From the NCBI RefSeq assembly GCF_003473485.1, contig NC_053049.1:28975292-29039291 (forward strand): 64,000 nucleotides of DNA, given 5' to 3'. Below are positions 3,531 to 57,754 of this stretch, in pieces. The position numbers and the translations under genes were made by a program. Each line of letters opens with the position of its first letter. Position 1 is the first letter of the stretch. A model generated the notes under the pieces. That model searched no databases. It saw nothing but the letters and a program-made list of their open reading frames with translations, and was not told the origin of the DNA. This DNA comes from Medicago truncatula (Eukaryota; Streptophyta; Magnoliopsida; Fabales; Fabaceae).

Positions 3531-3570
3531 AGCATGAGATCACCACTGAAACTACAATATAACAAACCAC

Positions 3571-5094
3571 ATGGAGGCAATGGCATGGTTCATAATCACT
3601 GCATTACTTGTTCTTCTTCTATGTCTTATAATATTAAGATTAAGATCCTCACAATCCATTCACCTCCCTCCCGGACCCCTCTACCTTCCTATCATTACAG
3701 ACATCTTCTTGCTCCAAATATCATTCTCAAAACTCAAACCAATTATTCGCAAACTCCATGCCAAACACGGCCCTATTATCACGTTCCATTTCTGGTCTAC
3801 TCCTCACATATTCATTTCCGATCGTTTACTTGCCCACCAAGCCTTAATCCAAAACGCTGTTGTCTTCGCCGACCGCCCCAAGTTCCTTAAGAATCACCAA
3901 TTTAACATAGCTTCGTCTTGCTACGGTCCCACTTGGCATGCTATCCGGAATAACCTCGCATCCATCATGCTTCAACCATCTCGATTCAAATCATTTTCCA
4001 AAGCTCGTAAGTGCGTACTAGACGCACTTATAAGCAAATTAAAATTTGAGGCAAATTTTTTGAATAATTCAGTTGAGCTCATCAACTACATTCGACACGC
4101 CATTTTTTGCTTACTATTTTCCATGTGTTTCGGGGAAAATGTGGATAGTAGGAAAATTGAAAAAATAAAAGACATCCAGAGACGTTTGATTTTGAGCTCC
4201 GGACAGTTGGGTGCTCTAAATTTCTTCCCGAAAATTGTATCTCGCGTGTTGTTTAGAAAACGTTGGCAAGAATTTACGCAACTTCGGAAGTTGCAAAATG
4301 ATTTGTTGGTTGAACTAATACAAGCCAGAAAGAAAGTTATTGAAAAAAATAACGATGATGATGAATATGTTGTTTGTTATGTGGATACTTTGTTGAATTT
4401 GCGGTTACCTGAGGAGAAACGGAAGCTTAACGAAGGTGAAGTTGTTGCACTATGTTCCGAGTTTCTCACCGCAGGAACTGACACAACTTCAACTACACTA
4501 GAGTGGGTTATGGCGAATTTGGTGAAAGACAAACACGTGCAACAGATGCTAGTGGAGGAAATTGAAGAGGTGGTTGGTGAAAGAGAGGAAAGGGAAGTGA
4601 GAGAGGAAGATTTGGAGAAATTGCCATATTTGAAGGCTGTGATTTTGGAAGGGTTAAGGCGTCATCCTCCTACTCACTACACAATTCCACGTGTAGTGAC
4701 GGAGGATATTGTTTTGAATGGTTACTTGGTGCCTAAAAATGGGACTGTGAATTTTATGGTGGCAGATATAGGATTAGATCCAACGGTTTGGGAGGATCCT
4801 ACGGTGTTTAAGCCAGAGAGGTTTCTAAAAGATGCAAAAAATAGAAACGAATTTGACGCATTTGATGTTAGGGGTATAAAAGAGATAAAGATGATGCCGT
4901 TTGGAGCAGGGAGGAGGATTTGTCCTGCCTATAAATTGGCAATGCTCCATTTAGAATACTTTGTTGCTAATTTGGTTTTGAACTTTGAGTGGAAGACTTC
5001 ATTACCAGGAAGTAATGTTGATTTGACAGAAAAACAGGAATTTACAATGGTGATGAAATATCCACTAGAAGCTCAAATTTCTCTCAGGAATTAG
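3571..5094 (+). CDS. Cytochrome P450, CYP89A-like (copy 1)
   Basis: Intronless 507-aa microsomal P450. An N-terminal hydrophobic anchor (about residues 5-24) is followed by the 'LPPGP' hinge. The I-helix oxygen-binding motif AGTDTT is at 301-306, the K-helix ExxR (EGLR) at 360-363, a PERF motif follows, and the heme loop PFGAGRRICPA has Cys451 as thiolate ligand. Length and the single exon fit plant A-type P450s of the CYP89 family. One Arabidopsis member, CYP89A9, oxidises chlorophyll catabolites, but the substrate here is unknown. The loop reads CPA where many plant P450s have CPG; the paralogue shares this. The start at 3571 is preferred because the paralogue starts in the same context (MEA...WFI). 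The gene is convergent with the cellulose synthase gene, 564 bases apart. Family call is firm; subfamily is from remembered similarity. Confidence 0.93.
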   Translation: MEAMAWFIITALLVLLLCLIILRLRSSQSIHLPPGPLYLPIITDIFLLQISFSKLKPIIRKLHAKHGPIITFHFWSTPHIFISDRLLAHQALIQNAVVFADRPKFLKNHQFNIASSCYGPTWHAIRNNLASIMLQPSRFKSFSKARKCVLDALISKLKFEANFLNNSVELINYIRHAIFCLLFSMCFGENVDSRKIEKIKDIQRRLILSSGQLGALNFFPKIVSRVLFRKRWQEFTQLRKLQNDLLVELIQARKKVIEKNNDDDEYVVCYVDTLLNLRLPEEKRKLNEGEVVALCSEFLTAGTDTTSTTLEWVMANLVKDKHVQQMLVEEIEEVVGEREEREVREEDLEKLPYLKAVILEGLRRHPPTHYTIPRVVTEDIVLNGYLVPKNGTVNFMVADIGLDPTVWEDPTVFKPERFLKDAKNRNEFDAFDVRGIKEIKMMPFGAGRRICPAYKLAMLHLEYFVANLVLNFEWKTSLPGSNVDLTEKQEFTMVMKYPLEAQISLRN

Positions 5095-5658: not shown

Positions 5659-8600
5659 TCAACAACTAATTCCACATTGCTTAACATCAGGCCCCTTAGT
5701 TTTCAACACAAAAGGGTCGATTCTTACCCAAACCAAAGAAAAGATAGAAGCCAAAAGCACAGACCAAATGACAACAAGAGTTGGTGTTCTATTCTGTCTT
5801 CCCATTAGTCCTTTAAGGAAAGGATAAAGATGAGCAATAACCCATGAAGAAAAGAACAGTTTCCCAATCAATGCTCCCCATTCATGTTCACCACTATTTA
5901 TAGCATCTGTGAAACCAGCAACAATACCGATAATGTTGAATATAGTCACTGTGGTTGGAGGTATTAGTAGTACTGTCCATCTAATGGTGTACAGTTCGTT
6001 AAACTCGCCATCATCGTCTGGTGCCTTCGATACAATGTTGAAATGTGCATTAAATCTACCAAGGAATCTTCCCATTAGGCCTTGTACAATTGCAAAGAGA
6101 TGTGCTGATATACTTCCAATGACCCAAAATTGTTGATTTCTCCACCATTCCTCAAGACTAACTCCACTCCATCTCAATTCAAGAATAGAAGAGGCGAAGA
6201 TTGATATGAATAGAGAAATGAATACCAGACTTGCAAAAGTTCCTACCTGAACAAACAATATCATTTGTAAACACAATGAATAATGGCTTCATTAGTTAAT
6301 AATAAGAGATTCAGGGCCTATTTGGATAAACTTAATTGAACTTATAGCATAAGCGCTTGTCATATAAGTGATCTATAACAATGGATAAATATAATCAAAT
6401 TGAGTTCATGAAGTTATAAACTGTTTTCATAAACTATAAGCTGTTTTCATATAATTTATAAGCCGAAAACAACTTATGTAGGTGTTATAAGTTATTTTCA
6501 TAAGCTTTTCCAAAAAACCTCACAAGTATTTATGAGAAGTATGGATAGCACTTTGTTATATTAACTTTTAAAATATCTCAACAAATATCTACATCAACAT
6601 TATTGAATCCATCATGCATGTATAATTTTTATTTTTTTGCAGTGACAATGTATAAAATAGAAGGAAATTGATTACCGATGGTGTGATGAATTTATCAGTG
6701 AGCAAGCAGACAGCCGGAACGATACAATATATTATGAGAGGCAATGCACTAAAAGGATAGACAGTGCTGTTAATATAGGCAATCCTTTGGAGCAGCTTGA
6801 GTCTTCCTTCTTTAAAACCATACCATATTGGACAGTGGTGGCTGAATAGAATCTCAAGTGATCCTACTGCCCATCTAAGAACTTGGTTAAGTCTTTCTGT
6901 AAGATTGATTGGGGCTGTTCCCCTAAAAGGAGCTCTTTTCGGCATGCAGTATACCGATCTCCAACCACGAGTATGCATCTTTAAACTTGTTAGAATATCT
7001 GATGCTATAGATCCATAGCTCATACCAACCTGTTGATGGAAAAAGTGTATTCATAACAATTTATATGGTTTAACAGTTTAAATATACACCTAAAAGGTCT
7101 TAAGACACCTAAAAATTGTATTGAACTTGTGTTTGAAGTTGCTTAACCATTCAAAGTGTTGTTGAAATTTGTTATCAAACTTGTGTGTTAAAATATTACT
7201 TTTGTTCTATAATATACCTCGTATCCCCACAGTGTCCGGTCTTCGTAGCTACAACTCATGACATGAATGGCCTCTTTAAGCAGGACTTCTTGAGTTGAAG
7301 AAGGATCTACGCCACCTTCTTCTGTCAATGAAGAATTCATGAAGAGTGTAGACTTTCCAAATTTGTTTTCAGTATCCTTATCTAATTGCAATGGCTGCTT
7401 CTCTTCATCAGTTGCTTCTGTTAAAAGAAAAGTAATTGTTATATACATGAAATGGGAAAATAATTTCATTTTGTTAGTTTTTCAAGTGAAATTATTGTCA
7501 CCTATAATGCTCCCATCCTCTTCATTTTCATCCTGTTTTGAGTGAACTTGTACGACTCGAGAGCGTTTTGACGCCTTAGGAGGATCAAAGCCATTTAAAG
7601 CTTTCCTTCTGAATATACAACCTGATCCAATATAAACAGGTCCTTGAATTCCATCTAGGCACCTCAAGTTGATCTGCAGAAAAACAAAATAGAAAGGGTA
7701 ACATGTCATTGTCAAATTTCATTCACATAAATACAATTAAGGTCGCCTATGAAGCACTGACACTCACAATAATGACACTGACATGTAAAAACTGGTAATA
7801 ATTTAAGAAAATGGAAAGACTGAATGTAACCACGTAACATGTCAGGTAGCAAATGAATTTAATCTGTGAAACTTACATCAAATAAAATAGTGTTTTTGTT
7901 GGCATAACGATCATTCCTATCAAGACTATCAAATCTTAGTGGAAACTGAACAAAGGCAATACTATTCCCAAGTTGAATGTCCATAAAGAAACACATGGCT
8001 TCTCTCACAACTTTGCTGTAATTCACATAATGATTGCAGTCCAAGTTGAGCACAAAAGGAGCATTGCTCAATACTGCCGATACACGAAGCTGAATAGACA
8101 AATTAAAAAGATTAGTTTGATGGATTTTAATCAGAAAAAACCAATCAATGTAATGTTGAAATTGAAATGTAAATTACCAAGGCGTTCATTGCACCGGCCT
8201 TTGTGTGATGTTGAAATGCAGGTCTTTTTTCTCTAGAAATGTAGACAAGAGATGGAAGTTCATTTCCTTCACTGTCTCCTCCATTGTGACCAAGAAGTAT
8301 TTGTATCATACTTGGATGATCTTTTGTATTGTTTCCCGGCCATGGTGTTTCATCCTTCATACTCCAACCTTCTGATGGAACTCTCATAGATTTAGCCACA
8401 AGCGCATTTATTCTCACCTTAAACTCTTCATATTCTCTCTGTTAGAAAAGTAACAGGACAATGAAGCTGCTGTAGTATTGCATTGTATATTGTATACTCT
8501 AATAAAACTGAACTGTTGTTGTCCCAAATTGATGTTCAAATAACATTTCTGTAATTTAATAAATGCTATGATACTAACCTTCATAGCACGGCGTTCTTTT

Positions 8601-11547
8601 ACGTATGTGGGTTGAAGCTTATCCTTAAGAAAGTCTATCTTCTCAGAGAAATACTTCTCAGGTGCTCGCGGCTCTGTAGAGAATTGTTTACAGAAAGGTA
8701 CCCATTTTTGCGCGAATTCAGCTGTTTCTTGAAGAGCTTCAAAGGTGAGCATGGAAGCGCCGTCATCAGAAACGTAACATGAAATTTTGTTTGCAGGATA
8801 ATCTAGTGCCAAAATTGAAAGAACAGTATTTGCTGTAACAAGAGGTGGTTCCTTGATTGGATCTGCGGTTGTTATAAAAATATCTATTGGAGAAAGCATG
8901 TTGGGCTTGTTTTCCGGCTCAAACCTGCATTACAATTAAGTCCAGGTGGTATCAGTTCAATGCTAAAAGTTTGACATTGTAAGCTTAGGAGTCGAGTTCA
9001 AATCCCCTCCGAGACAATAGTTGTGAAAGTTAGTTAAACTAGTTAGCTAGTTACACGAGATAGTTGACTATACAAGTCTCATGTACCCCTTGATGTAATT
9101 CATTATTTCATAATCAATATAATTTTCATTTACTTTTCTCTTATCTGTGGCTTCTATTGCACATAGCAATAGAGGAATTCTATCACGAATAGTAATCGAG
9201 ACAGTTATAAAATTGTCATTCAGAGTACAAGTAGTAGAATGAGATCAATCATATGAGAGTAAAATAAGCTTCAGGACCTGACTGAAAGGCGGTCAAGGTA
9301 TGTCTCGCGATCGATGGGAAACCATTTGGGAATCTGATCAACTATCCATGACAATGCAAGCCAGATTTCACATGATACCGATATAAACCAAAGTCCAATT
9401 GCATCAGGTACTGGATGGGAGATTCTGTACTCAAAGAAGAGTAATAGAAGGATGAGCCTAGCCACAACCATCATTCTATAAGGACTGAGTCTTCCTGAAG
9501 GTATTGCTACTTTCCTTGATAGTGGCTGTCTAGTTTCATCTTTCCTGCATGCATCATGTTACACAGCACTAATTAGTCATGTTTGAATAAACAACTTAAT
9601 TAAGTGCTTAAAACATAAGCGCTTATCATATAGTAAGTGTTTATGTAAAAGTTATTTCTTTAACAAAAAGATAAAATAAATGCAGCCTGTTTTCATATAA
9701 GCTATAAGTTGTTATCTTAATCTACCCTGAAGAGCTTATACTAATAATCAGAAATAGCCTATAGACGTGCCATAAGCTGTTTTCATAACCTCTACAAAAT
9801 AGTCTCACAAGTGCTTATGTCAGTAGATAAATTCAAATAATTCAATCTATGTAGGCCCTAATAGTATTAGTGTAAGATGATTTTCCTGTGTAAATGACAT
9901 GCTTATTTCTTTAGCAAAAGATAAAATAAAGTCTAAATATTTTCATATTAGCTATAAGCTGTTTCATAAGTTGTCTCGAACAATCTTACAAGTGTTTATA
10001 CACTAGATAAGCTCAAACAAGTGTTTATGATAATTTTCTAGAGTAAAAGACACAGGCATATATCGTTGTTAAGAGAGTTAGATCACAAGTTTCCTAATTT
10101 CATGATGTATGACATACATACATGGCCTTTTCTGGATCAACCGCGTCAGTTTCAATCAACAGATTTCCTTGCTGCTTCCACTCATCTGTTTTCTCCTTGT
10201 TATCTAATTTTGCACCATCTGCTTCATGAAGATCAACATGATAGTTATATTTATAATTATAATAAACAAGCACCTGTTTTTATTTTATATATTCTTATTG
10301 ACAAGAAGAAAACTAGGGTTACTCCTTCCTCATAAAATAGAAGCATAATTTAAAATTGCCAACTAAGAGGGAAAAAAGTTGAAGCTCATTGAATTAATTA
10401 ATAAATTAATTAAGCTTAATTAAATTTATAGGATAACAAAACATACAATTTTCTCCAATACTGTGAGAATATAGGGGTTGCTCCCTATATTTTGTATCAT
10501 CATCATCAATGCTATTCATATTATCTTGATGCATAAGCTTGTACTTTTCCTCTTCCATTTTAAATTCTTGTTCAATATCATCCACATCTTCTTCATCTTC
10601 ATCTCCCTCCACTCTTGGACTTCCTTTTGCATGGCAAGAAATAACAATAAAAAAGAAAATTATATCATTAGAGAAATCTATGTATATATAGTTGTATACC
10701 ATGCTATATATGAAGCTCATACACATACCAGACACGACACGACACGACGCTGACATTGAAAATACCTTTGATACGCTTGTATCTTGTATGGCATTGAGGG
10801 CAATTTTGAGACCCTTCTTTCCTTTCATACTCATAGCATGGCCTGCAAACAGGGAAGCCACACTCTTCACAAGCTACAAATAAGTCTCCTTCTACTGTAC
10901 GCCCTACAGAATCACCACATATCTCACAATCTTGACCATCCAAGTTTTTCACTGCCTTAGGCTGCATAAACTAAAATTAATTAGAATTGTACATGTTATT
11001 CCAAAAAATAAATTAAATATATTGAATATTACAATACACTTAAAAATGATCACATTAAGTATATTATTTATATATATTTTTTTTCCTAGTATGCTACATA
11101 TAAAAATAACAAAGGGCTTATAAAAAAGGACGTTGGTAATAATTAACTTGTGCTCTAAATTAATTTATGTATGGCTTTAAACAGCCCCCCACGCAAGTGG
11201 ACGGTGGGATGACAATTGCTTTTTTGACATTTAAAACTTCCTAAAAACATAAGTAAAGTACGAAAATACCCCCAACAGTAGTTAACCCGACTTTATAACT
11301 AGAAAATCGATAGCAGTTAACTGCTGTTGGGTTTTTTGATCATTTACTTGTGTTTCTAAGACACATTAAATGTCAGAACAGCAACTGTTCGATGAGATTG
11401 GTCCTCTCGAATTAATCGGTCCTTAGATCAGATACAGAATTTAAAAAAAAAAAAAAAATCTGCATGGTTTACCTCATTTTGTTTTTGGATGACCACAAGT
11501 TCATTGCTGTTAAGAGACCCTGCAAAAAGACCACTCTTAGCTTCCAT
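5659..11547 (-). CDS. Divergent cellulose synthase catalytic subunit (CesA), 12 exons
   Basis: Exons in order: 11547-11473, 10961-10766, 10623-10447, 10218-10122, 9544-9278, 8924-8579, 8438-8178, 8089-7877, 7673-7502, 7417-7218, 7029-6676, 6246-5659. All junctions are GT-AG and phases match, giving 2946 nt and 981 aa. Exon 4 could also start at two later AG sites in the same frame. The protein has an N-terminal zinc finger with eight Cys (37-82), two then about five membrane helices, and a GT2 domain with DDG (324-326) and QVLRW (717-721). CesA makes beta-1,4-glucan from UDP-glucose at the plasma membrane. Oddities: the DxD motif reads D490-C-N492 instead of DCD; the TED motif reads A677-S-D679; the gating loop reads FNIVSK (855-860) instead of FxVTxK; the class-specific region is only about 50 residues. 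The gene is clearly CesA, but catalysis is doubtful. Isoform is not assigned, though the N-terminus resembles CesA7/CesA3 types. Confidence 0.92.
6310..6545. repeat. 'Cataagc' legume repeat in CesA intron 11
   Basis: AT-rich repeat made of 'cataagcgctt', 'ataagctgttttcat' and inverted forms, within the intron 6247-6675. The same family occupies 9575-10030 in intron 4, in two adjacent copies. It looks like a non-autonomous DNA element; termini are not resolved. Confidence 0.45.
8937..9135. mobile_element. SINE-like insertion in CesA intron 5
   Basis: A stretch with 'gagttcaaatccc', close to a Pol III B box, and an upstream 'ggtggtatcag' A-box-like word, then a T/A-rich tail. It lies within the intron 8925-9277. 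A tRNA-derived SINE is plausible, but no poly(A) tail or target duplication was confirmed. A fragment of another retroelement is the alternative. Confidence 0.3.
9575..10030. repeat. Two tandem copies of the 'cataagc' legume repeat, CesA intron 4
   Basis: The intron 9545-10121 is mostly filled by two successive copies (about 9575-9870 and 9870-10030) of the element seen in intron 11. The shared words are 'acataagcgcttatcatat' and 'ataagctgtttc'. No coding content. Confidence 0.45.
11162..11440. repeat. MITE-like repeat in CesA intron 1
   Basis: GC-richer than the rest of intron 1 (10962-11472). It contains the inverted words 'aacagtagttaaccc' and 'gcagttaactgctgttggg', and 'gacatttaaaac' against 'aaatgtcag'. 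Probably a small non-autonomous DNA element; ends are not defined. Confidence 0.35.
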
Positions 11548-15576: not shown

Positions 15577-15619
15577 ACGTGACATGTATCATTCTTGTAA
15601 AACCAATTGAAACTAAAAC

Positions 15620-17119
15620 ATGGAGGCATCATGGTTCATAATCCTTGTTTTTATGTGTCTTTCAATACTTATTATCACAAGTATAAGATCCCTCAAATCA
15701 ATTCAACTCCCTCCTGGACCATTCCATTTTCCTTTCATTTCCGATATCCTATGGCTACGGAAATCATTCCCACAACTCGAGCCAATTCTTCGCAACCTTC
15801 ATGCCAGACATGGCCCTATCATCTCATTCCACTTTTGGTCTACACCTAACATATCGATATCTGATCGTTTCCTCGTCCACAAGGCCTTGGTCCAAAACGG
15901 CGCCATTTTTGCCGACCGACCTAAAGCCCTTTTCCTAAACAAACCACTCAACATCGCCTCCTCTTGTTACGGCCCCACATGGCGCGTTCTTCGCAATAAT
16001 CTTGCCACGACAATGCTTCACTCATCGCGGTTCAATTCCTTCTCTAACACGCGCAAATGTGTCCTTGAAGCACTTGTCAAGCAATTAAAATCTGAAACGG
16101 AATCAAGTCATTCCATTAAGTTCATTGACCACATACATCATGCAATTTTTAGCTTACTAGTTTTTATGTGTTTTGGTGATAAAGTGGACAGCGAGAAAAT
16201 TGAAACCATTAAGCACATCCAACGCCTTTGGATTATAAGCTCCGGAAAATTCGGTGTGCTAAATTTCTTTCCAAAAATGATCTCTCACGTGATTTTCCGA
16301 AAACGTTGGAATGAGTTTTTGCAACTTCAAAAGGATCAAAAGGATGTATTTATTGAACTAATAAGAGCGAGAGAAAAAGAAAGCAATAAAAATAATCTTG
16401 ATCATGAACGTGCCATTTGTTACGTCGATACTTTGTTGAATTTGGAGTTGCCTGAGGAGAAACGAAAGCTTGATGACGATGAGCTTGTTGCGCTGTGTTC
16501 GGAGTTTCTCACTGCCGGAACAGATACAACTTCAACTGCATTAGAGTGGGTTATGGCGAATTTGGTCAAATACAAACATGTGCAACAAAGAATAGTCGAG
16601 GAAATTGGAGTTGTAATTGGTGATAGAGAGGAAAGAGAAGTAAAAGAGGAAGATTTGGAAAAGTTACCTTATCTTAAGGCAGTGATTTTAGAAGGGTTAA
16701 GGCGCCACCCTCCTTCTCACTACTTAATTCCACATGCAGTGACCGAGGATGTGATTTTTAACGGTTACTTGGTGCCTAAAAATGGGACAGTTAATTTTAT
16801 GGTGGCAGAGGTTGGGTGGGATCCAAGTGTTTGGGAGGATCCCATGGCATTCAAGCCAGATAGGTTTGAGGAAAGTAGTAATGGATTTGATGTTACAGGT
16901 CAAAATGAGATAAAGATGATGCCATTTGGAGCAGGAAGGAGGATTTGTCCTGCCTATAACTTGGCAATGCTCCATGTAGAGTACTTTGTGACAAATTTAG
17001 TTTGGAACTTTGAATGGAAGACTTCATTACCAGAAAGTAATGTTGATTTGTCAGAAAAACAGGAATTTACTATGGTGATGAAATATCCATTGGAAGCTCA
17101 AATATCTCCTAGGATCTAG
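15620..17119 (+). CDS. Cytochrome P450, CYP89A-like (copy 2)
   Basis: Intronless, 499 aa, close paralogue of the gene at 3571 along its whole length. Visible: an N-terminal anchor (about residues 5-22), the 'LPPGP' hinge, AGTDTT at 299-304, EGLR in the K helix, and PFGAGRRICPA with heme Cys443. The PERF motif reads PDRF here. Expected to be an ER-anchored monooxygenase taking electrons from P450 reductase; the substrate is unknown. It is eight residues shorter than copy 1; one visible difference is just before the heme loop, where 'ESSNGFDV' replaces the longer 'DAKNRNEFDAFDV'. The two copies lie in the same direction with the CesA gene between them, so a tandem P450 pair was split by, or duplicated around, CesA. 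Confidence 0.93.
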   Translation: MEASWFIILVFMCLSILIITSIRSLKSIQLPPGPFHFPFISDILWLRKSFPQLEPILRNLHARHGPIISFHFWSTPNISISDRFLVHKALVQNGAIFADRPKALFLNKPLNIASSCYGPTWRVLRNNLATTMLHSSRFNSFSNTRKCVLEALVKQLKSETESSHSIKFIDHIHHAIFSLLVFMCFGDKVDSEKIETIKHIQRLWIISSGKFGVLNFFPKMISHVIFRKRWNEFLQLQKDQKDVFIELIRAREKESNKNNLDHERAICYVDTLLNLELPEEKRKLDDDELVALCSEFLTAGTDTTSTALEWVMANLVKYKHVQQRIVEEIGVVIGDREEREVKEEDLEKLPYLKAVILEGLRRHPPSHYLIPHAVTEDVIFNGYLVPKNGTVNFMVAEVGWDPSVWEDPMAFKPDRFEESSNGFDVTGQNEIKMMPFGAGRRICPAYNLAMLHVEYFVTNLVWNFEWKTSLPESNVDLSEKQEFTMVMKYPLEAQISPRI

Positions 17120-21373: not shown

Positions 21374-23443
21374 TCACCAATAATCACCACAAGAGCATAC
21401 ACCATCCTTAAAATGGTGGAATCTATTAGTATCTCTAACAATAATTTCCCGCTCAACTATTTTGGAGATTAACTTAGCAGCAATATGGCAATCTCCACAG
21501 ACACGAAGGTTTTTGGTAATTCTGATTTGATACTCTTGTGTATTCAAAAGAGCAAAGACAATAGCTAGCTTTTCACTATGAACAGCCAGATGGCCTTCCT
21601 TATCCTCTTCCTCCACATCATGAAGTGCTGAATCTGTCTCAGGTACATATCCTAACTCTTTCATCTTTGCAACTAGCACACCTAGCTCTTCATATATTTC
21701 CTTTGACTGCGGATGCGATGTGTCACCCGCAAGAAATGTATGGACCTGATTGTTTAGCTCCACATTACTGATGCCAGGAGTTTTTCGAATTTTTTTCCTC
21801 TTCATTACTGACCGAATTTCTGTCACTTCTTTCCATCTACCAGCCTTTGCATAAATATTAGATAACAACACATAGTAACCTGATTGCTCAGGAGCCAATT
21901 GAAGTAGGTTGTCAGCTGCTAAAATCCCAATATCCATGTTTGTAAACACCCTACAAGAGCTAAGCAGTGTCGCCCAAACTCTTTCATTTGGCTCAATTGG
22001 CATTTGTTTGATAATATTATAAGCCTCGTCTACACGCCCGGCTCGTCCTAATAGATCAACCAAACAAGCATAGTGTTCGATTCTTGGTGTTATTCTATAA
22101 TCATCTGTCATCTGTTTAAAGTAAATCCTCCCTTCATCCAATAATCCTGAATGGCTACAAGCCGAGAGAATTGCGACAAATGCGATAGAATCTGGAGCTT
22201 GACCTGAATTTAGCATTTCTGTGAAGAGTGCCACAGCATTACAGCCTTGCCCGGTCATACCATAAGCAGATATCAACGAAGTCCATGAAGCAACATCGCG
22301 GAACTTCATTCTGTCAAACACTCTTTTTGCATCGTCTAAACATCCACACCTAGCATACATGTCTATCAAAGAATTCTCCAGTAGCAAATTTGGACATAAT
22401 TTCTTCTTCTCAACATATTCATGAATCCTCCTTCCTAACAACAATGCCGAAAGATCCCCACATGCTGGAAGAACACTAGCAAATGTGATTGCATCCGGTT
22501 CCACTCTGCATTTCTCCATTTGCAAATACAAATCCACAGCTTGTGTAGGCAACGAGTTTTTCATATAAACTCTTATCATCACATTCCACGATATCAAATT
22601 CTTCCTCTCCAAATTCACAAATATCTTCTCAACATACAAAACATTCTCCGACGAAGTGTTGGCTACAGCTGGCATGAGACTAGCCATCGTACATCCATCT
22701 GGTTTTTGTCCATAATCCTCCATTTCCCTACAAATCTCCAACGCATCATCAAATCGCATATTATGTGCATACCCCGCAACCATCGAGTTCCATGAAACAA
22801 CATCCTTCCATATCATTTCATCAAACACACGCCGCGCCTCAAACAAACACCCACATTTCCCATACATCGCAATTAGACCGTTCCCAACAAACAAATTAAA
22901 ATCCAACCCAACCTTCAACACATCTCCATGAATCAACAACCCATATCTCAAATTTTCCGAACAAGAACAAGCTTTAAGAACACACGGGTAAGTATAATTA
23001 TCGGGTCTAAACCCTCCATTAACCATCTCCCTAAACACAAGCAACCCATCATCATACCTATGATTATTCACATAGCTTCTAATCATAACATTATAGAAAA
23101 CAACATTTCTATCAGACATTTCATCGAACACCTTGCGTGTCAACCCGGGTTCTCCACAAGCAGCATATGATCTCATTAGTTTGATTCCTAGAGATGGATT
23201 TTGATGTGAATTAAGATAAAAAATCATGGTGTGAAGCTTTTTCAAAGTTTTGATATCTGGGTTTTGGTCTAGTGCTTTTGCTAGAAGTTCCAAAGCTTGT
23301 GAGGATTTGTTGAATGAAGAAAGTAATGCTTGTAATTCAGAAATGTGACGAGATAGTTTATGAAATGGTAGCATTTTACATATATCTCTGTCAATCATGA
23401 ATAACGATATTTTCGTAGTATATAGTAGAGGGAAAAACACCAT
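21374..23443 (-). CDS. PLS-DYW pentatricopeptide repeat protein, At3g49142-like
   Basis: Intronless, 689 aa. An N-terminal leader (about 1-60) may be an organelle transit peptide. PPR units follow from about residue 80 with typical 'WNVMIRVYMKN' and 'NSLIDMYARCG' repeats, then E/E+ segments and a complete DYW domain. The DYW deaminase motifs HSEKLA (622-627) and CGDCH (649-653) are present, and the protein ends in GDYW. Such proteins bind one organelle RNA each, and the DYW domain edits C to U. From memory the sequence follows Arabidopsis At3g49142 almost throughout (e.g. 'LACSCSE'-type and 'LAPEQSGYYVLLSNIYAKAG' regions), so orthology is likely. The first Met is used; later in-frame Mets at residues 16 and 24 are alternatives. 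The edited site is unknown. Confidence 0.93.
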   Translation of the reverse strand: MVFFPLLYTTKISLFMIDRDICKMLPFHKLSRHISELQALLSSFNKSSQALELLAKALDQNPDIKTLKKLHTMIFYLNSHQNPSLGIKLMRSYAACGEPGLTRKVFDEMSDRNVVFYNVMIRSYVNNHRYDDGLLVFREMVNGGFRPDNYTYPCVLKACSCSENLRYGLLIHGDVLKVGLDFNLFVGNGLIAMYGKCGCLFEARRVFDEMIWKDVVSWNSMVAGYAHNMRFDDALEICREMEDYGQKPDGCTMASLMPAVANTSSENVLYVEKIFVNLERKNLISWNVMIRVYMKNSLPTQAVDLYLQMEKCRVEPDAITFASVLPACGDLSALLLGRRIHEYVEKKKLCPNLLLENSLIDMYARCGCLDDAKRVFDRMKFRDVASWTSLISAYGMTGQGCNAVALFTEMLNSGQAPDSIAFVAILSACSHSGLLDEGRIYFKQMTDDYRITPRIEHYACLVDLLGRAGRVDEAYNIIKQMPIEPNERVWATLLSSCRVFTNMDIGILAADNLLQLAPEQSGYYVLLSNIYAKAGRWKEVTEIRSVMKRKKIRKTPGISNVELNNQVHTFLAGDTSHPQSKEIYEELGVLVAKMKELGYVPETDSALHDVEEEDKEGHLAVHSEKLAIVFALLNTQEYQIRITKNLRVCGDCHIAAKLISKIVEREIIVRDTNRFHHFKDGVCSCGDYW

Positions 23444-23527
23444 GCATATAGTTGAATATTCAGGTATGAAGAGAATATAATAAGGTACTGTAAGACTTTC
23501 GATCCAATGGTGAATAAGGATCGTTTA

Positions 23528-30842: not shown

Positions 30843-32536
30843 GTAGCATTTCACATGGGAAGGGCAATCCCTTCCCACCATGGGAAATGTGGTTTTTTAC
30901 CTGCAATAGCAAGTCAAACAGGTTGCCATTGGTTTTGTTTGGAATTGCACTTGAGACAAAAAAATGATTAATGGACTTATTAAAAACTTAATTGTTTGTT
31001 TTTTTATTTCTTTTTCATCTTCATCTTCTTCCTCACCCTCTTTTTTCTATCTCATCTTTTTTCCAGCAACACAACATCAACACAACAACAACACAACAAT
31101 CTCTTCTTCTCTTCTTTCCTGGTTGTTCCAATCCATCCCCTTCTCATCAATTTTCAATTTTTGGATCAAGCATCAACAACACATCAATTACAACACATCA
31201 TTAACAACAACAACAACACAAAATTCTTCTTTAACCCAATTCCAAACCAGAAAAACAAAATCAAATGAAATTTGATTCGGAAACAACAACAACTTCAACG
31301 TAAAACAACAACAACAACTTCTTTAAAAACAAATCATCAAATTAAAAATCAACCCAGATTGCTTCCTCTTCCAATCGAAAATCAAACCCAAGTGGTTAAA
31401 AATCAATTCCATGTATGAAGAATCAAAAACCCATATTCAAAAATTCTCTCTTTCAAAATTCGAAAATCCTCTCTTTCAATTTCTTGACTGTGTTGCTGTT
31501 TCTTGATTGGAGGGGTGGAGGGTATGATCTGGAAGAAAAGAAATAGAGAGAAGAGAAAAGAGAAGAGAAGGAAGAAGAAAAGGAATAACAAAAAGAGAGA
31601 AAGTGGGATAGAATAGAAGGAAGAAGAGAATAGAGAAGAGAATGATGAAGATAATAGAAGGAAGAAGAAAAGAAAGAAGATAAACAGAGAAGGTGGGAGA
31701 TAAGAGAAGGAAGAAGAGAGAAGGGGATTACGCTGGAGAAGAAGAGAGAAAAAGAAATGAGATTTTTTTTTTTTTAATTTATCATTAAGGGTATTTTAGG
31801 TATTTCATCTTTTTAACATAATTTTAAAAATTAAAAATTATGACGTGTCAATGCCATTTCACCAATTACTACACAGTCAGCGTGCCACATCAGCTCATTA
31901 ATCCAGTCAGATGACATCAGGGGTGTAAACCAAAGAATCTTCATTTTACAAGGGGATTACACTCACAAAATGAGGTGTACCAGTACTCCTGCTTCTTAAT
32001 TTTATAAATGAACAATAATATTTTATGTAGTAAATAGCTATTTGTCAATATTTATATTTTATAGAACAACATTTCATAATAAAAAACATTATTTAATTAT
32101 TTATAGGAATCATAGTAACTTTTTTTACATATTATCGTAAAAAATAATGAATGTTTTCAATTATAAGTGATAAAAATTTAAAAAAATAAAAAATTATTTC
32201 GTTGACACTTTTGATGAATAAAATTTAGTTATTATAATTATAAATGATAAAAAAAAAAAATTCCTTCAAAAAACAACTCATTTAACTATGAATTTAAAGA
32301 GTGAGTGTACCGGTACACTCAAATATAGTGGGTGTACCATATAATTTGCCTAATTAAAATAACATTTTCCCTATAGGTGGGGTCTGACAAATTTTTGTTA
32401 AAGGATGAAAATCAAAAAGTTATAAAAGGGTTATAGGTGATCAATCTTAGCCATTCAATTTGTTTATTAAGATATCTATGGTCCAAATTCACCCTTCCCA
32501 TGATGGGAAAGTAATCCACCTTTCCATGTGAACACA
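30843..32536. mobile_element. About 1.7-kb inverted-repeat element before F-box gene A
   Basis: Left end (30843-30893) has 'tttcacatgggaagg' and 'ccaccatgggaaatg'. The right end, read in reverse (32536-32480), has 'gttcacatggaaagg' and 'cccatcatgggaagg'. Between lie a CT-rich block (about 31000-31100), CAA-rich sequence, then a long GA-rich block (31540-31760). No conserved protein is found; the frames in the CT/CAA block are low complexity. It ends 123 bases before the F-box A start codon. Confidence 0.5.
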
Positions 32537-32658
32537 CACCACCATCTAATACTGCAGCACCATCTAATACTGCAGCATTCATCTTTAACTATTCATTCTC
32601 ACTCACATTACATTTCTTCCCAAGACTCTGTTTCAAGAAGACTTCAATAACCTCTTTT

Positions 32659-33921
32659 ATGGAGGATAAAAAATCAGATAAGATTCTTCCGGCAATGCAA
32701 AATCCAACTACCCCTTCTATGGAAAACCCAGCTAGTGAGAACAGAGTTACTAACCATATTCCCAGAGACCTTCATTTCTCTGTTCTTTCTAATCTTCCAT
32801 TTAAATCCGTCAACCGATTTTCTTCTGTTCACAGATCTTGGTATCATTTGCATGAAAACCCTGCTTTCCTAAACATGTTTTTGGCTTCAGAATCTCATTA
32901 CAATGATCATCCTGATGTGAAGCTTTTATTTAACACAAATATGACTTTGAGCCCTAGGCTGTATCTATGCTCAGGTGAGCACTTTAAGATTGAATCTGAA
33001 TTGGAGATGGAGTTTCCATCTTCATTCCTTAACAAGAATCTTTCCATATTAGGTTCAGCTATTCATGGTGTTATCTGTCTATACGAAGTTAGCAATCAGA
33101 ATAATGTCATAGTGTGGAATCCTGTTAATGGCCAAAAACATGTCCTTCCTACCAACCATGCTGAGAACTGTATCTCTAACGTTCTTGTTCATGGATTTGG
33201 TTATGACCATGTTCATCAAGATTTCAAGGTTATACAATATGTGGTTAACAATGGTGTTAAATGTCTTGGTAGTAGAGATCAAAGCAACTCCTTTTGGCAG
33301 GTGTATAGTCTGGTAAATAACAAGCATACAAAGATTGAAGTTGCTTTCAGTGTTCCCTTTCTTCATTATAAGCCTTACGATGGTATGGAAGTTTACTTGG
33401 ATAATGTGTGCTATTGGCTGGGCAGAATCAGCGAAGATGATCAACTTTATCTTGTCTCATTCAATTTGGCCAAGAATAAGTTTTTAACAAATACACCCTT
33501 GGATAATAAATGGGTCCGTTACTATGATGAGTACGACTTTGATGTAACGGAACTCTTTCTAAAGTTGGTGGTGATACATGGCTCTGTTGCTATGATTATA
33601 CAGCATACCGATCCGTTTTCTTTTAGCATATATATTTTGGGTGAGATTGGTATGAAAGAAACATGGACAAAACTGGTCAATGTTTCACCTCTGCCTTCCA
33701 TGAAGGATTCTATAGCAGCTGGGAAAAAGGGCGTTATATTCTTTAAAGCATATGAAAAGGATGGAAAGGTAGCTTGTTACGATTTAACTACCGGGGCGGT
33801 TGAGGAACTTAATTTTGGAGCAGGAAAGAATATTCGCCAAATCGTGCTTTACAAGGAGAGCGATCGTTCTCTTTCAGAAAAGAGAAAGAACACCTGTCTA
33901 CTTGAAGGTATAAATAGTTAA
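32659..33921 (+). CDS. F-box protein A (F-box plus associated interaction domain)
   Basis: 420 aa if read through. An F-box lies at about residues 36-80 ('HFSVLSNLPFKSVNRF', 'SVHRSWYHL'), followed by an F-box-associated domain with 'GSAIHGVICLYEV', 'VIVWNPVNGQ' and 'HGFGYDHVHQDFKVIQYV'. Such proteins are substrate receptors of SCF ubiquitin ligases; the target is unknown. The family is the kelch/FBA type expanded in legumes. The end is uncertain: a splice donor (gaag|gtataaat) at 33907/33908 and acceptor (tttatgcag) ending at 34435 would replace the last four residues by five (ESSQS) and stop at 34450-34452, giving 421 aa. Gene D has the same intron in its 3' UTR. Closest relatives in the window are C and D. 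Confidence 0.85.
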   Translation: MEDKKSDKILPAMQNPTTPSMENPASENRVTNHIPRDLHFSVLSNLPFKSVNRFSSVHRSWYHLHENPAFLNMFLASESHYNDHPDVKLLFNTNMTLSPRLYLCSGEHFKIESELEMEFPSSFLNKNLSILGSAIHGVICLYEVSNQNNVIVWNPVNGQKHVLPTNHAENCISNVLVHGFGYDHVHQDFKVIQYVVNNGVKCLGSRDQSNSFWQVYSLVNNKHTKIEVAFSVPFLHYKPYDGMEVYLDNVCYWLGRISEDDQLYLVSFNLAKNKFLTNTPLDNKWVRYYDEYDFDVTELFLKLVVIHGSVAMIIQHTDPFSFSIYILGEIGMKETWTKLVNVSPLPSMKDSIAAGKKGVIFFKAYEKDGKVACYDLTTGAVEELNFGAGKNIRQIVLYKESDRSLSEKRKNTCLLEGINS

Positions 33922-40957: not shown

Positions 40958-41407
40958 TATAAATATATAGTATTGATTCATCACAATAATTTACTTAATT
41001 AACCCTTTAACTTTTTTTTACAATCCTTTAAATTAAAAGATACCATTATTTCTCTAAAAAAAAAAACGATAACATTGTTTAATCTCGTATAAATATTTAG
41101 CCACCGTAAACTAACTCCCGGTGAAAAAGAGAGTTTTGTTTGTTGTGGAACTTGTCAAAAAGAGAGTAAAACACTTATTTTATTCGAAAAAACAGGGTTT
41201 CCTTTTTTTTTTCTTTTCTTCAACACAACGTGAAAACCCTTATTTTCAACCTCAGTTGTTTCATCTATCACAAAATAAAAGTTCCTTGTTTTAATCGAGT
41301 GCTACCTTTTTTTTTATAGCCACGGTTTCCTTTAGGGATTATTGTGGGAAGGGAACGTATGTTGGAATTGATTGGCGGCACCTTGGAGAAGTTTGAGTGA
41401 GAAATCA
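40958..41407. other. Upstream region of F-box gene B
   Basis: AT-rich with several A/T runs. No element or promoter motif can be defined with confidence. Confidence 0.3.
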
Positions 41408-42592
41408 ATGGCTCCAAACAATGAAAAGGTTAGCAGTAGCTTATATATTCCTGAAGATGTTTCCTTCATTATTTTCTCTAAACTATCCCTCAAATCTCTC
41501 AAGCGGTTTACTTGTGCGTGCAAATCATGGTCTCTTTTATTTGAAAACCCTAGTTTTATGAATATGTTCCGCAAAAATTTCATATCTATGCATCAGTCAT
41601 TGTACAACAACACTTATCTCTTTCTAAATATAAAGGAGATATGGCCATGTCCCCAAGATGATGGTTCAGAGTTGTATTTGGTTTCTGGCGACAAATTTGA
41701 GAACAGTTTTGAATTGAAATGGCCAGATTCACTTCCACTGGACGCGGATGAGATTTATTTGTTTGATTCTGGATTTAACGATATTATTTGCTTTTCTGAT
41801 ATTCGTCATGCAAGGGTTGCATTATGGAATCTAGATACTAAGCAATTGGAGACTGTTGCTCGAAGCCCTGCTCAAGTTTTACCTTCTTCTACTCCTTGGT
41901 TTGTTGTTCATGGATGTGGTTATGACCATGTTAATGATGACTATAAGATCATTCGTTATGTTCATACTTATAATTATATACCTTATGACAAAGTTGACTG
42001 GACTTATATGCCAATGAAGCCACACCCTTTTTGGGAGATTTATAGCATAAGAAATCACTCTTGGAAGAGACTTGATTTAGACGATATGGCTAGAGGTACA
42101 GGTCGTAAGGTGTACTTGAATGGATTATGTCATTGGTGGGCGATGAGAGATGATAATTACATGGTTTCTTTTAACTTGAGCACTGAGATGTTTTCTACTA
42201 CACTGTTACCCTTGGATATGCAAGATAGATATCATGATGAATGGGTGGATATGGGCAGGAGATACTTAGACTTGGTGGTGTTAAATGGGTTTGTTGCTAT
42301 GATCTTAAAGCATGTAAAGACAGCAGCTTTTCACATATATGTTTTGGGTGAACCTGGTCATAGAGAATCATGGACTAAACTCTTCATAGTCGGACCCTTG
42401 CCTAATGTTTGGCGTCCTCTTGGAGCAGGAAAAAAAGGTGATCTATTCTTCGTTAAAGATGATGATGGACTAACTTGTTTTGATTTAAATACCCAAAGAA
42501 TTGATGATTTTGGTGTTAAAGGGGAGTCTTTATATTGTGACTTTGAAATTTATCAGAAAAACTTTCTTCCGATTGGTCGGAAAAAAAATTAA
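41408..42592 (+). CDS. F-box protein B (F-box plus associated interaction domain)
   Basis: 394 aa from the ATG at 41408 (MAPNNEK); the frame is open upstream but has no earlier ATG close by. The F-box is at about 14-60 ('VSFIIFSKLSLKSLKRF', 'CKSWSLLFENPSF'). The associated domain has 'HGCGYDHVNDDYKIIRYV', 'FWEIYSIRNHSWKRLDL' and 'KVYLNGLCHWWAM'. Predicted SCF substrate adaptor, target unknown. It is more distant from A, C and D than they are from each other. The fragments at 47180-47425 (middle) and 52131-52260 (C-terminus) derive from this lineage. No conserved 3' intron was recognised. Confidence 0.88.
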   Translation: MAPNNEKVSSSLYIPEDVSFIIFSKLSLKSLKRFTCACKSWSLLFENPSFMNMFRKNFISMHQSLYNNTYLFLNIKEIWPCPQDDGSELYLVSGDKFENSFELKWPDSLPLDADEIYLFDSGFNDIICFSDIRHARVALWNLDTKQLETVARSPAQVLPSSTPWFVVHGCGYDHVNDDYKIIRYVHTYNYIPYDKVDWTYMPMKPHPFWEIYSIRNHSWKRLDLDDMARGTGRKVYLNGLCHWWAMRDDNYMVSFNLSTEMFSTTLLPLDMQDRYHDEWVDMGRRYLDLVVLNGFVAMILKHVKTAAFHIYVLGEPGHRESWTKLFIVGPLPNVWRPLGAGKKGDLFFVKDDDGLTCFDLNTQRIDDFGVKGESLYCDFEIYQKNFLPIGRKKN

Positions 42593-49901: not shown

Positions 49902-51038
49902 ATGGCAAATCCACCAACTGGCAAGAGTAATGGTACGTTTGTTACTAATGACATTGCTTTCTCTGTTCTCTCCAAGCTTCCTCTTAAATCTATCAAGCGA
50001 TTTTCTTCTGCTTGCAAATCTTGGTCTCAAGAGTTTGAAAAACCTAGTTTCTAACAAAATTTCTTCAACAATCTTGTTTCCAAATCTCATGATGATGATG
50101 ATGATGTGAAACCTCTCTTTAACATCAACGATAGGTTGTATTTGCGTTCTGGTGACAATTTTCAGGATGAAAAAGAATTGGATATGAATCTGCCATCTGC
50201 ATTTGATGCTAGGCATTTTCATATTTTAGGTTCTGCTATTCAGGGTGTTCTTTGTCTCTATATTGTTGGCAATCAGAAAAATATAATCTTGTGGAACCCT
50301 GATGTTAGTGGTCAATATAGAGTCCTTCCTACTGACTATGCCGAGGACCTAGGGTCTCGAGACGAAGACTTCGTCCCTAATTTTCAGGTTCATGGATTTG
50401 GTTATGACGCTGCTAATCATGATTTCAAGGTCATTCAACTTGTGAAGTACTTTGGCTATCATGAAACCATCTCCTTTTGGCAAGTGTATTGTCTCCGCAG
50501 TAACACGTGGACAAAACTTAACATACCTAGTGGTAATCAGATTCCATTTCATCAGTATTACCCTAATGGTTTGGAGGTTTACTTGGATGGTTTTTGCCAT
50601 TGGTTGGGCAGAGTCGCATATGGTCAACTTTATCTCGTGTCATTCAACTTGACCAATTATAAGTTTTCAGTTGCAGCTGCACCTGTCGATGTAGGTGTAA
50701 CTGAACAGTCTTTGAAATTGGTGGTGTTAAATGGGTCTGTTGCTATGATCAACCAACATGCTGATCCTATGTCTTTTAGCATATCAATTTTGGGTAAAAT
50801 TGGTGTCAAAGAATCATGGACAAAACTTTTCAATGTTGCATCTTTGCCTTCTTTTAAGGATCCTATCTCAGCTGGGAAGAAGGGTGTTATATTCTTCAAA
50901 GGAGATGAAAACAATGGTAGAGTAGCTTGTTTTGATTTAACTACCAGGATGATTGAGAAGGAAATTGATTTTGGAGCAAAAAAGAATATTCAGCAAATCG
51001 TATTTTACAAGAACAGAAAGAACACCGGTCGTCATTGA
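49902..51038 (+). pseudogene. F-box gene C, interrupted by a nonsense codon
   Basis: From the ATG at 49902 an F-box reads for 50 codons ('IAFSVLSKLPLKSIKRF', 'SACKSWSQEFEKPSF'). A TAA at 50052-50054 then stops it, where A has 'FLNMF' and D has 'FLKMF'. The same frame stays open to 51038 and encodes a complete F-box-associated domain ('GSAIQGVLCLYIV', 'VHGFGYDAANHDFKVIQLV'), with no other stop in 328 codons. It is 3' closely related to D. Either a young pseudogene, or only a short F-box peptide is made. Polymorphism or an assembly error is possible. The leader has a short CA run at about 49858. Confidence 0.85.
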
Positions 51039-56359: not shown

Positions 56360-56557
56360 TAAAATAATTAAAACATAAAATTAATTATTTATATATTTAA
56401 TTGAAATGTTTACGTGCCACATCACTAATAATGATTATTACATCTTCGTTAAACACACACACCGTTTCATTACTAACTAACTAACTACTATATCTAATCC
56501 ATTCCCACTCAAATTCATTCTAACATTCTTCATAACAAACTCGTTCGAGAACCTTCT

Positions 56558-57754
56558 ATGGCGGAAGCTCCGAGATCTGAGAAGGTGATGGTTCCTCCAA
56601 TGGCCGATCCATCAAGTGAGAACAAAGCAACTGAACGCATTCATTTTTCCATTCTCTCTAAACTCCCCATTAAATCTATCAACCGTTTTTCCACTGTTCG
56701 CAAGTCTTGGTCTGGATTGTTTGAAAACCCCGATTTCTTGAAAATGTTCTGCAAGAATCTCGTTTCTAAATATCATGGTAATAATGGTGATGATGTGGGA
56801 CTACTCTTCAACATCAATTCCAAGAATTTGAGCTTGCTTTCTGGTGACAAGTTTAAGCCTTTGAATATGGTGAATCTGCCATCTCAATTTGTTGATTATA
56901 ATAAGCATCTTGGTATTTTAGGTTCTGCTGTTGACGGTGTTATTTGTCTTTATGATGTTTACAATCAGAAAAATATAATACTGTGGAACCCTTCAAATAA
57001 TGAAAAGCGTGTTCTTCCTACTAACTATGCTGAGGATCTAGGTGGTATAGATGACTGCATCCCTAATATTTGTGTTCATGGATTTGGTTATGACACTGTT
57101 CATCGTGATTTCAATGTCGTTCAATATGTGATTAATGATAACGTTTACTCTGATGGTAGTTTAGATCAAACTGACTCGTTTTGGCAAGTGTATAGTCTGA
57201 AGAGTAACAAATGGAAACCATTAGATGGTGTTCGTCTTCCATTTCTTCAGTATAACCCTAATGGTTTGGAGGTCTGCTTGGATGGTGTTTGTCATTGGCT
57301 AGGCAGAAAAGAAACAAATAGTCAACTTTTTCTTGTGTCATTCAACTTGGAGGCATTCAACTCGGCACTTACACCAGTGGATGCAGATGTAACTGAATCG
57401 TCTTTGAAATTGATGGTGTTAAATGGGTCTGTTGCTATGATCACACAACATGCTGATCCTATGTCTTTTAGCATATCAATTTTGGGTCAAATCGGTGTCC
57501 AAAATTCATGGACCACATTTTTCAATGTTGCATCTTCGCCTTCCATTAAGAATCCTATTGCTGCTGGTAAGAAGGGTGTTATATTTTTCAAAGGAAATGA
57601 AAAAGATGGTAAAGTAGCTCGTTTTGATTTAACTTCCGGGATGATTGAGAGGGTAATTGATTTTGGAGCAAAAGAGAATATTCAGCAAATCGTATTTTAC
57701 AAGGAAACCGACCAGATCCTTTCAAAAAAGAGAAAGAGCACCCATCGTCATTGA
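56558..57754 (+). CDS. F-box protein D (F-box plus associated interaction domain)
   Basis: 398 aa. The F-box is at about residues 26-72 ('IHFSILSKLPIKSINRF', 'VRKSWSGLFENPDF'). The associated domain has 'GSAVDGVICLYDVYNQKN', 'HGFGYDTVHRDFNVVQYV' and 'VCLDGVCHWLG'. Predicted SCF substrate receptor; target unknown. It is the intact sister of C. The stop TGA is followed by gctgaag|gtataaat, the donor of an intron shared with gene A. Its acceptor would be at about 61212 (ctttatgcag), giving a 3' UTR intron of about 3.45 kb. Such an intron could trigger nonsense-mediated decay if it is more than about 50 nt past the stop; here the donor is only about 10 nt past, so decay is not expected. Confidence 0.9.
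   Translation: MAEAPRSEKVMVPPMADPSSENKATERIHFSILSKLPIKSINRFSTVRKSWSGLFENPDFLKMFCKNLVSKYHGNNGDDVGLLFNINSKNLSLLSGDKFKPLNMVNLPSQFVDYNKHLGILGSAVDGVICLYDVYNQKNIILWNPSNNEKRVLPTNYAEDLGGIDDCIPNICVHGFGYDTVHRDFNVVQYVINDNVYSDGSLDQTDSFWQVYSLKSNKWKPLDGVRLPFLQYNPNGLEVCLDGVCHWLGRKETNSQLFLVSFNLEAFNSALTPVDADVTESSLKLMVLNGSVAMITQHADPMSFSISILGQIGVQNSWTTFFNVASSPSIKNPIAAGKKGVIFFKGNEKDGKVARFDLTSGMIERVIDFGAKENIQQIVFYKETDQILSKKRKSTHRH

Follow-up and report, generated by a model that had tools for sequence, protein, structure and literature searches.

A cellulose synthase gene whose DxD motif reads DCN within an open reading frame raises the question of whether its product still makes cellulose, whether the gene is a decaying duplicate or whether the protein persists in a role other than catalysis. 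Such a gene, here called the window CesA, is present in the window, i.e., the whole 64,000-nucleotide stretch of Medicago truncatula DNA that was analysed.

Gene structure and descent

Splice-aware alignment of the window CesA (Table 1) gave exons that join into 981 codons with no internal stop and GT-AG borders at 11 of 11 introns, in agreement with a sequence-only reading of this DNA, which had described 12 exons and an open frame of 981 residues. The aligner was unable to model frameshifts; a hidden frameshift is argued against by the unbroken alignment to a cotton CesA (in the part displayed) and by six exon lengths identical to those of L013, a motif-intact CESA7 of the same genome. Pfam matches were to PF03552 (Cellulose_synt, 1103.7 bits) and PF14569 (zf-UDP, the N-terminal RING, 130.3 bits), and all 14 columns that are invariant in the N-terminal/RING segment were unaltered. 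The best PDB match was cellulose synthase 7d5k, which we take to be cotton CESA7. Both L013 and 7d5k resemble the window CesA in class, RING finger and overall alignment.

Table 1. Coordinates of the window CesA and of its motifs, in window numbering.
Feature	Position	Strand	Remarks
CesA gene	5659..11547	-	12 exons, 981 aa, ATG to TGA; spliced alignment, Pfam, PDB match
Exon 2, RING zinc finger	10766..10961	-	Pfam and invariant-column comparison
Uridine-groove motif STVDP, here TTADP, residues 289-293	8858..8872	-	alignment
DDG motif, residues 324-326, intact	8759..8767	-	alignment
DxD motif, D490-C491-N492 (GAC TGC AAT)	8033..8041	-	counterpart of Asp460/Asp462 of PttCesA8
YVGTG motif, here YIGSG, residues 558-562	7620..7634	-	alignment
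Class-specific region, exon 9 part	7502..7577	-	extends into exon 10 (7417 and lower)
VTED motif, I676-A677-S678-D679	6997..7008	-	last Asp retained
QVLRW motif, residues 717-721, intact	6871..6885	-	alignment
Gating loop FxVTxK, F855-N-I-V858-S-K860	6025..6042	-	Thr854 counterpart is Val

In a protein tree of 13 CesAs and 2 of the 8 CslD genes from the same genome, the window CesA was sister to L013 (UFBoot 91), with a branch length of 0.36 as opposed to 0.07 for L013. The gene lies on contig C8 of the searched genome (430 Mb, 42 contigs). The main text of PMC4118957 describes nine CesAs from M. truncatula, 981-1098 aa in length, including MtCesA7-B (Medtr8g063270), with low identities of 63-64%, and a CESA7-A/B clade with 100% support. 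MtCesA7-B shares with the window CesA its location on chromosome 8, its CESA7 clade and its long branch, and the 981 residues of the window CesA equal the lower end of the length range given there for all nine proteins. By inference from class and clade, chromosome and length, the window CesA is the published paralogue MtCesA7-B, and L013 is apparently MtCesA7-A. The window CesA is a CESA7 by descent, CESA7 function being a separate matter.

Catalytic motifs and the donor pocket

Unlike the motif-intact CESA7 proteins, which keep their catalytic motifs, the window CesA has Asn492 (codon AAT, 8033-8035, in GAC-TGC-AAT read from 8041 to 8033) in place of the second Asp of the DCD expected of a CESA7, and its TED reads ASD (7005 to 6997), the Thr and Glu being gone. 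Both motifs are as the sequence-only reading had given them. The damage is wider than DxD and TED. Thus, the gating loop FTVTxK has become FNIVSK, with the loss of both Thr and, in the alignment, a one-residue insertion immediately ahead of it; the uridine groove is altered (Table 1); and the class-specific region contains no Cys, as opposed to four in that of L013, so that the cysteine cluster is absent. Activity may persist because DDG, the first Asp of DxD, the last Asp of TED, QVLRW and the gating Phe and Lys are kept, as is the uracil Asp.

Published work bears on several of these positions. Asp460 and Asp462 of PttCesA8 are reported to contribute to Mg2+ coordination, and among poplar CesA8 gating-loop mutants only V853L and T854S retained approximately 30% of activity (PMC10592267); activity was therefore not retained by T854A. 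The class-specific region is reported to be needed for isoform-isoform contacts and to bear cysteines postulated as acylated (PMC12077881). Asp-to-Asn changes elsewhere in Arabidopsis CesA1 give the rsw1-20 and any1 phenotypes (PMC8306620).

A search of the genome returned at least 36 loci with a DxD exon (at least 13 CesA, at least 8 CslD and at least 15 other Csl), and both Asp of DxD were kept at 34 of the 36 loci returned, the exceptions being the window CesA (DCN) and L019 (DYN). L019 (G000:C3:1222500-1232499) is a full-length CESA6-type gene with a RING finger and with QVFQW in place of QVLRW; its TED is kept and, in raw reading frames, its class-specific exon is intact and cysteine-rich. 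It is apparently the published MtCESA6-F (Medtr3g007770), which PMC4118957 reports to have altered GT2 motifs, as have chickpea and bean CESAs (XP_004499618.1 and ESW20735.1). L019 is thus, like the window CesA, a legume CESA with changed GT2 motifs that include an Asn for the second DxD Asp; unlike the window CesA, it belongs to the CESA6 clade, represents a separate loss and keeps both TED and a cysteine-rich class-specific region. The two genes together show that motif loss has occurred more than once within one genome.

Other departures from the usual pattern were also noted. A CESA4-type copy, L016 (G000:C1:34169000-34178999), has DDS, DCDQY, QVLKW and a gating Thr-to-Arg change. Its RING exon was found neither in this 10-kb locus nor in the adjoining 10-kb locus L029, so that L016 may be truncated and its standing as a third pseudoenzyme is uncertain. 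Near L016, at 3752-3708 of L029, the opposite strand encodes a CesA-like N-terminal peptide (E 0.015), perhaps a first exon that has moved, perhaps a chance match. L015 (G000:C7:50442700-50452699) is a CESA3-type duplicate (low dS of 0.17, omega approximately 0.35) in which all motifs are intact, and a CslD-like exon in a diverged context (L035, G000:C5:44473000-44476000) has DFD in place of DCD. Two loci with poor CslD models, L028 and L025, were excluded from the family alignment.

The extent of the pocket damage was evident from a comparison of donor-pocket and gating columns that were invariant in ten motif-intact paralogues, the UDP-glucose-binding residues of poplar CesA8 being taken from PMC10592267 and mapped through the alignment. 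In the window CesA, 9 of 20 such columns were altered, as opposed to 56 of the 355 columns that are invariant outside this set (one-sided Fisher test, p 0.0029). In poplar numbering the nine changes are S258T, V260A, D462N, V529I, T531S, T674A, E675S, V853I and T854V; V673, also named for poplar, varied among the motif-intact paralogues. Some of the nine are mild, and V260A is present in CslD as well; in our judgement D462N, T674A, E675S and T854V are the serious ones. Corresponding counts for motif-intact paralogues were 1/21 for L013 and 0/20 for each of L010, L020 and L015, and the enrichment was not significant for L019 (4/20, p 0.13) or L016 (4/20, p 0.10).

Over the whole protein, altered invariant columns were concentrated in the catalytic part of the window CesA (48/239 vs 17/152 in other parts, p 0.025) and of L019 (31/239 vs 8/152, p 0.015), with no such concentration in L016 (24/239 vs 11/136, p 0.58), while those of L015 fell mostly outside the catalytic part (13/252 vs 23/175). 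Of columns invariant across the superfamily, 40 of 281 were altered in the window CesA.

Selection, age and the fate of the protein

Branch-specific omega was fitted with a codon model to 710 core codons of 13 CesAs, with no CslD and with the class-specific region of L019 excluded, by a purpose-written program in place of a standard one. Catalytic (406 codons) and TM+PCR (304 codons) partitions were also fitted, and these partition tests were picked once the motifs were known. The omegas are approximate because dS is near saturation on the branches concerned (0.93 for the window CesA and 1.3 for L019). On the window CesA branch, omega was 0.148, approximately 2.6-fold above a background of 0.056 (from the fit without the branch set apart), and both equality with background (2dlnL 29.7) and omega = 1 (2dlnL 56.6) were rejected. 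The sequence-only reading had named dN/dS near 1, with no transcripts, as a result that would count against it; averaged over the branch, constraint is relaxed relative to background but omega stays well below 1. Relaxation was strongest in the catalytic partition (0.185 vs 0.033, p 1e-8) and was also noted in TM+PCR (0.127 vs 0.060, p 0.013).

The pattern was clearer for L019, in which omega was raised in the catalytic partition only (0.093, p 0.002; TM+PCR 0.052, p 0.71) and was indistinguishable from background over the whole core (0.073, p 0.21). L016 was relaxed in both partitions (catalytic 0.132, p 1e-7; TM+PCR 0.111, p 0.04). A raised omega proves nothing on its own about catalysis because values were also raised for motif-intact L010 (0.127 when fitted alone, p 0.019 vs background) and L015 (0.35 for the whole core, 0.173 in the catalytic partition). 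Moreover, the 0.148 of the window CesA is an average over the whole branch, including the time before the loss, and cannot show constraint after it.

Reading-frame integrity bears on age. Neutrality over the dS of the branch predicts approximately 121 nonsense lesions in the window CesA, and none was found. The longest neutral time compatible with zero lesions (95%) allows approximately 1.09 pocket changes, and the probability of four serious ones in that time is 0.025 without indels and 0.0019 if an indel rate of 5% of the substitution rate is allowed, the full span for four serious changes being 0.025 to 0.0004. Most of the pocket changes thus probably arose under continuing constraint on the frame. 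This argues against a very recent loss, with moderate strength because the outcome varies with the choice of serious changes. The suggestion in the sequence-only reading that the loss might be very young is disfavoured, as is a plain pseudogene, by omega, by the integrity of the frame and, with moderate strength, by the excess of pocket changes. Neither a frame lesion nor an omega near 1 was found for the gene; what it combines, absent catalytic residues and an open frame, is what the sequence of a pseudoenzyme would be expected to combine.

Transcripts, for which the sequence-only reading had advised a search, are reported for the alfalfa counterpart. In RT-qPCR with primers designed on Medicago genes, MsCesA7-B transcript levels followed those of MsCesA4 in stems under stress (correlation 0.93) and clustered with those of CesA4, CesA7A and CesA8 in leaves (PMC4118957, PMC4519941). 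By analogy, the window CesA is likely to be transcribed.

These findings bear on what the gene now is. A non-functional relic, i.e., a slowly decaying duplicate whose frame is open by luck or because the loss is recent, would account for the raised omega, for the superfamily-invariant columns that have changed and for a class-specific region without Cys, but is improbable given the missing nonsense lesions, the number of serious pocket changes and the joint transcription of the alfalfa counterpart with CesA4. An error of assembly at codon 492 is conceivable in so far as a single base separates AAT from an Asp codon; with TED, the gating loop, the uridine groove and the class-specific region altered too, the enzyme would look damaged even after correction, and such an error is very improbable as an explanation. 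It also seems unlikely that the window CesA is still an enzyme of an altered kind, whether metal-independent, slow, specific for another donor or forming another glucan. Bacterial GT6 members that are metal-independent and have the DxD metal site replaced provide a precedent (PMC3961637), the uracil Asp, the last Asp of TED, QVLRW and the gating Phe and Lys are in place, and omega in the catalytic partition is below neutrality (the comparison with omega = 1 having been made for the whole core); however, TED lacks Thr and Glu and the gating loop lacks both Thr, and in poplar CesA8 activity was not retained when the gating Thr was replaced by Ala (PMC10592267). In the other degenerate copies, L016 and L019, the set of altered motifs is partly a different one, a pattern that resembles loss rather than a single new chemistry.

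Our preferred reading, held with about even confidence, is that the window CesA is a CESA7 that is mostly inactive and has been retained as a partner in the secondary-wall complex; a non-catalytic subunit role, the other option raised by the sequence-only reading, would fit the comparisons best. The gene would be an old paralogue of secondary-wall CESA7 in which the ability to synthesise cellulose is mostly or wholly gone, and its protein would still be made and would serve as a pseudoenzyme partner of active CESAs. This supposes a protein that is inactive but folds and trimerises, and a constraint that persisted after catalysis was lost. By joining CESA4/CESA8 complexes in secondary-wall cells, it might influence how these are assembled or trafficked, how active they are or how many chains they make.

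A laboratory parallel is found in soybean CesA trimers inactivated with tetrathionate, which are reported to stay trimeric, to bind other isoforms and to raise their activity (PMC12077881). They are an inactive CesA that influences active isoforms, as proposed for the window CesA, which differs in being a natural variant; by analogy, a natural inactive CESA7 could stimulate CESA4 or CESA8. The partner reading is weakened for the window CesA because its class-specific region is divergent and lacks Cys, and the relaxed TM+PCR constraint also counts against it. L019, with its cysteine-rich region, would be the better candidate for such a role.

Relation to other CESA genes and the surrounding DNA

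This gene has apparently been published already, and altered motifs have been noted in legume CESAs before, so that the view of the sequence-only reading that such a pseudoenzyme was not described holds in part only. According to the main text of PMC4118957, every MtCESA except CESA6-F has D, D, DxD and QxxRW; MtCesA7-B is thus given there as DxD, whereas the window CesA has DxN and an altered TED. The Asn, and the motif damage as a whole, is passed over in that main text. A search of open-licence literature on inactive or pseudoenzyme CESAs, covering titles and the starts of abstracts, returned nothing on this gene. What is added here is the recognition of several catalytic lesions, the pairing of the gene with L019 and evidence against simple decay as a pseudogene.

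Altered superfamily-invariant columns were shared more often than expected between the window CesA and L016 (8 vs 3.1, P 0.005) and between L016 and L019 (6 vs 2.4, P 0.02). Before this count, the L016 list was cleared of nine columns in the RING segment that were altered in or absent from that gene. The overlap between the window CesA and L019 was within chance (6 vs 4.6, P 0.29), and no altered column of L015 was common to any of the three. Indications of same-site convergence are mixed, and convergence is not claimed for the Asn pair of the window CesA and L019. The spread of a defective cassette among the three genes by gene conversion was also considered; no sign of it was seen in 60-residue windows, in which the fractions of identical codons shared with degenerate copies were, by eye, generally not above those shared with the nearest normal paralogue.

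A broader proposal, that legumes have repeatedly made CESA duplicates (a CESA7 here, the CESA6 L019 and perhaps the CESA4 L016) into non-catalytic complex subunits that set activity or determine how many glucan chains a microfibril contains, is quite doubtful. If natural CESA pseudoenzymes do join the complex, they would offer a genetic handle on the number of active subunits needed and on the chains per microfibril. Published work presents the gene as a normal CESA7 of the secondary wall, and expression studies that equate it with cellulose-making capacity would need correcting if the preferred reading of an inactive CESA7 is true.

Several other reading frames were noted in the window. Four similar frames (32515-33921, 41372-42592, 50055-51038 and 56498-57754) lie beyond the CesA; Pfam assigned an F-box to the one at 32515, F-box and FBA_1 to that at 41372 and FBA_1 alone to that at 56498, while the frame at 50055-51038, which by eye seems N-terminally shortened, gave no match in Pfam at E values up to 0.001. 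A single open frame on the minus strand (21374-23524) encodes a PPR protein that carries E, E+ and DYW deaminase domains. Two open cytochrome P450 frames, alike by eye, flank the window CesA, one on each side (3550-5094 and 15617-17119).
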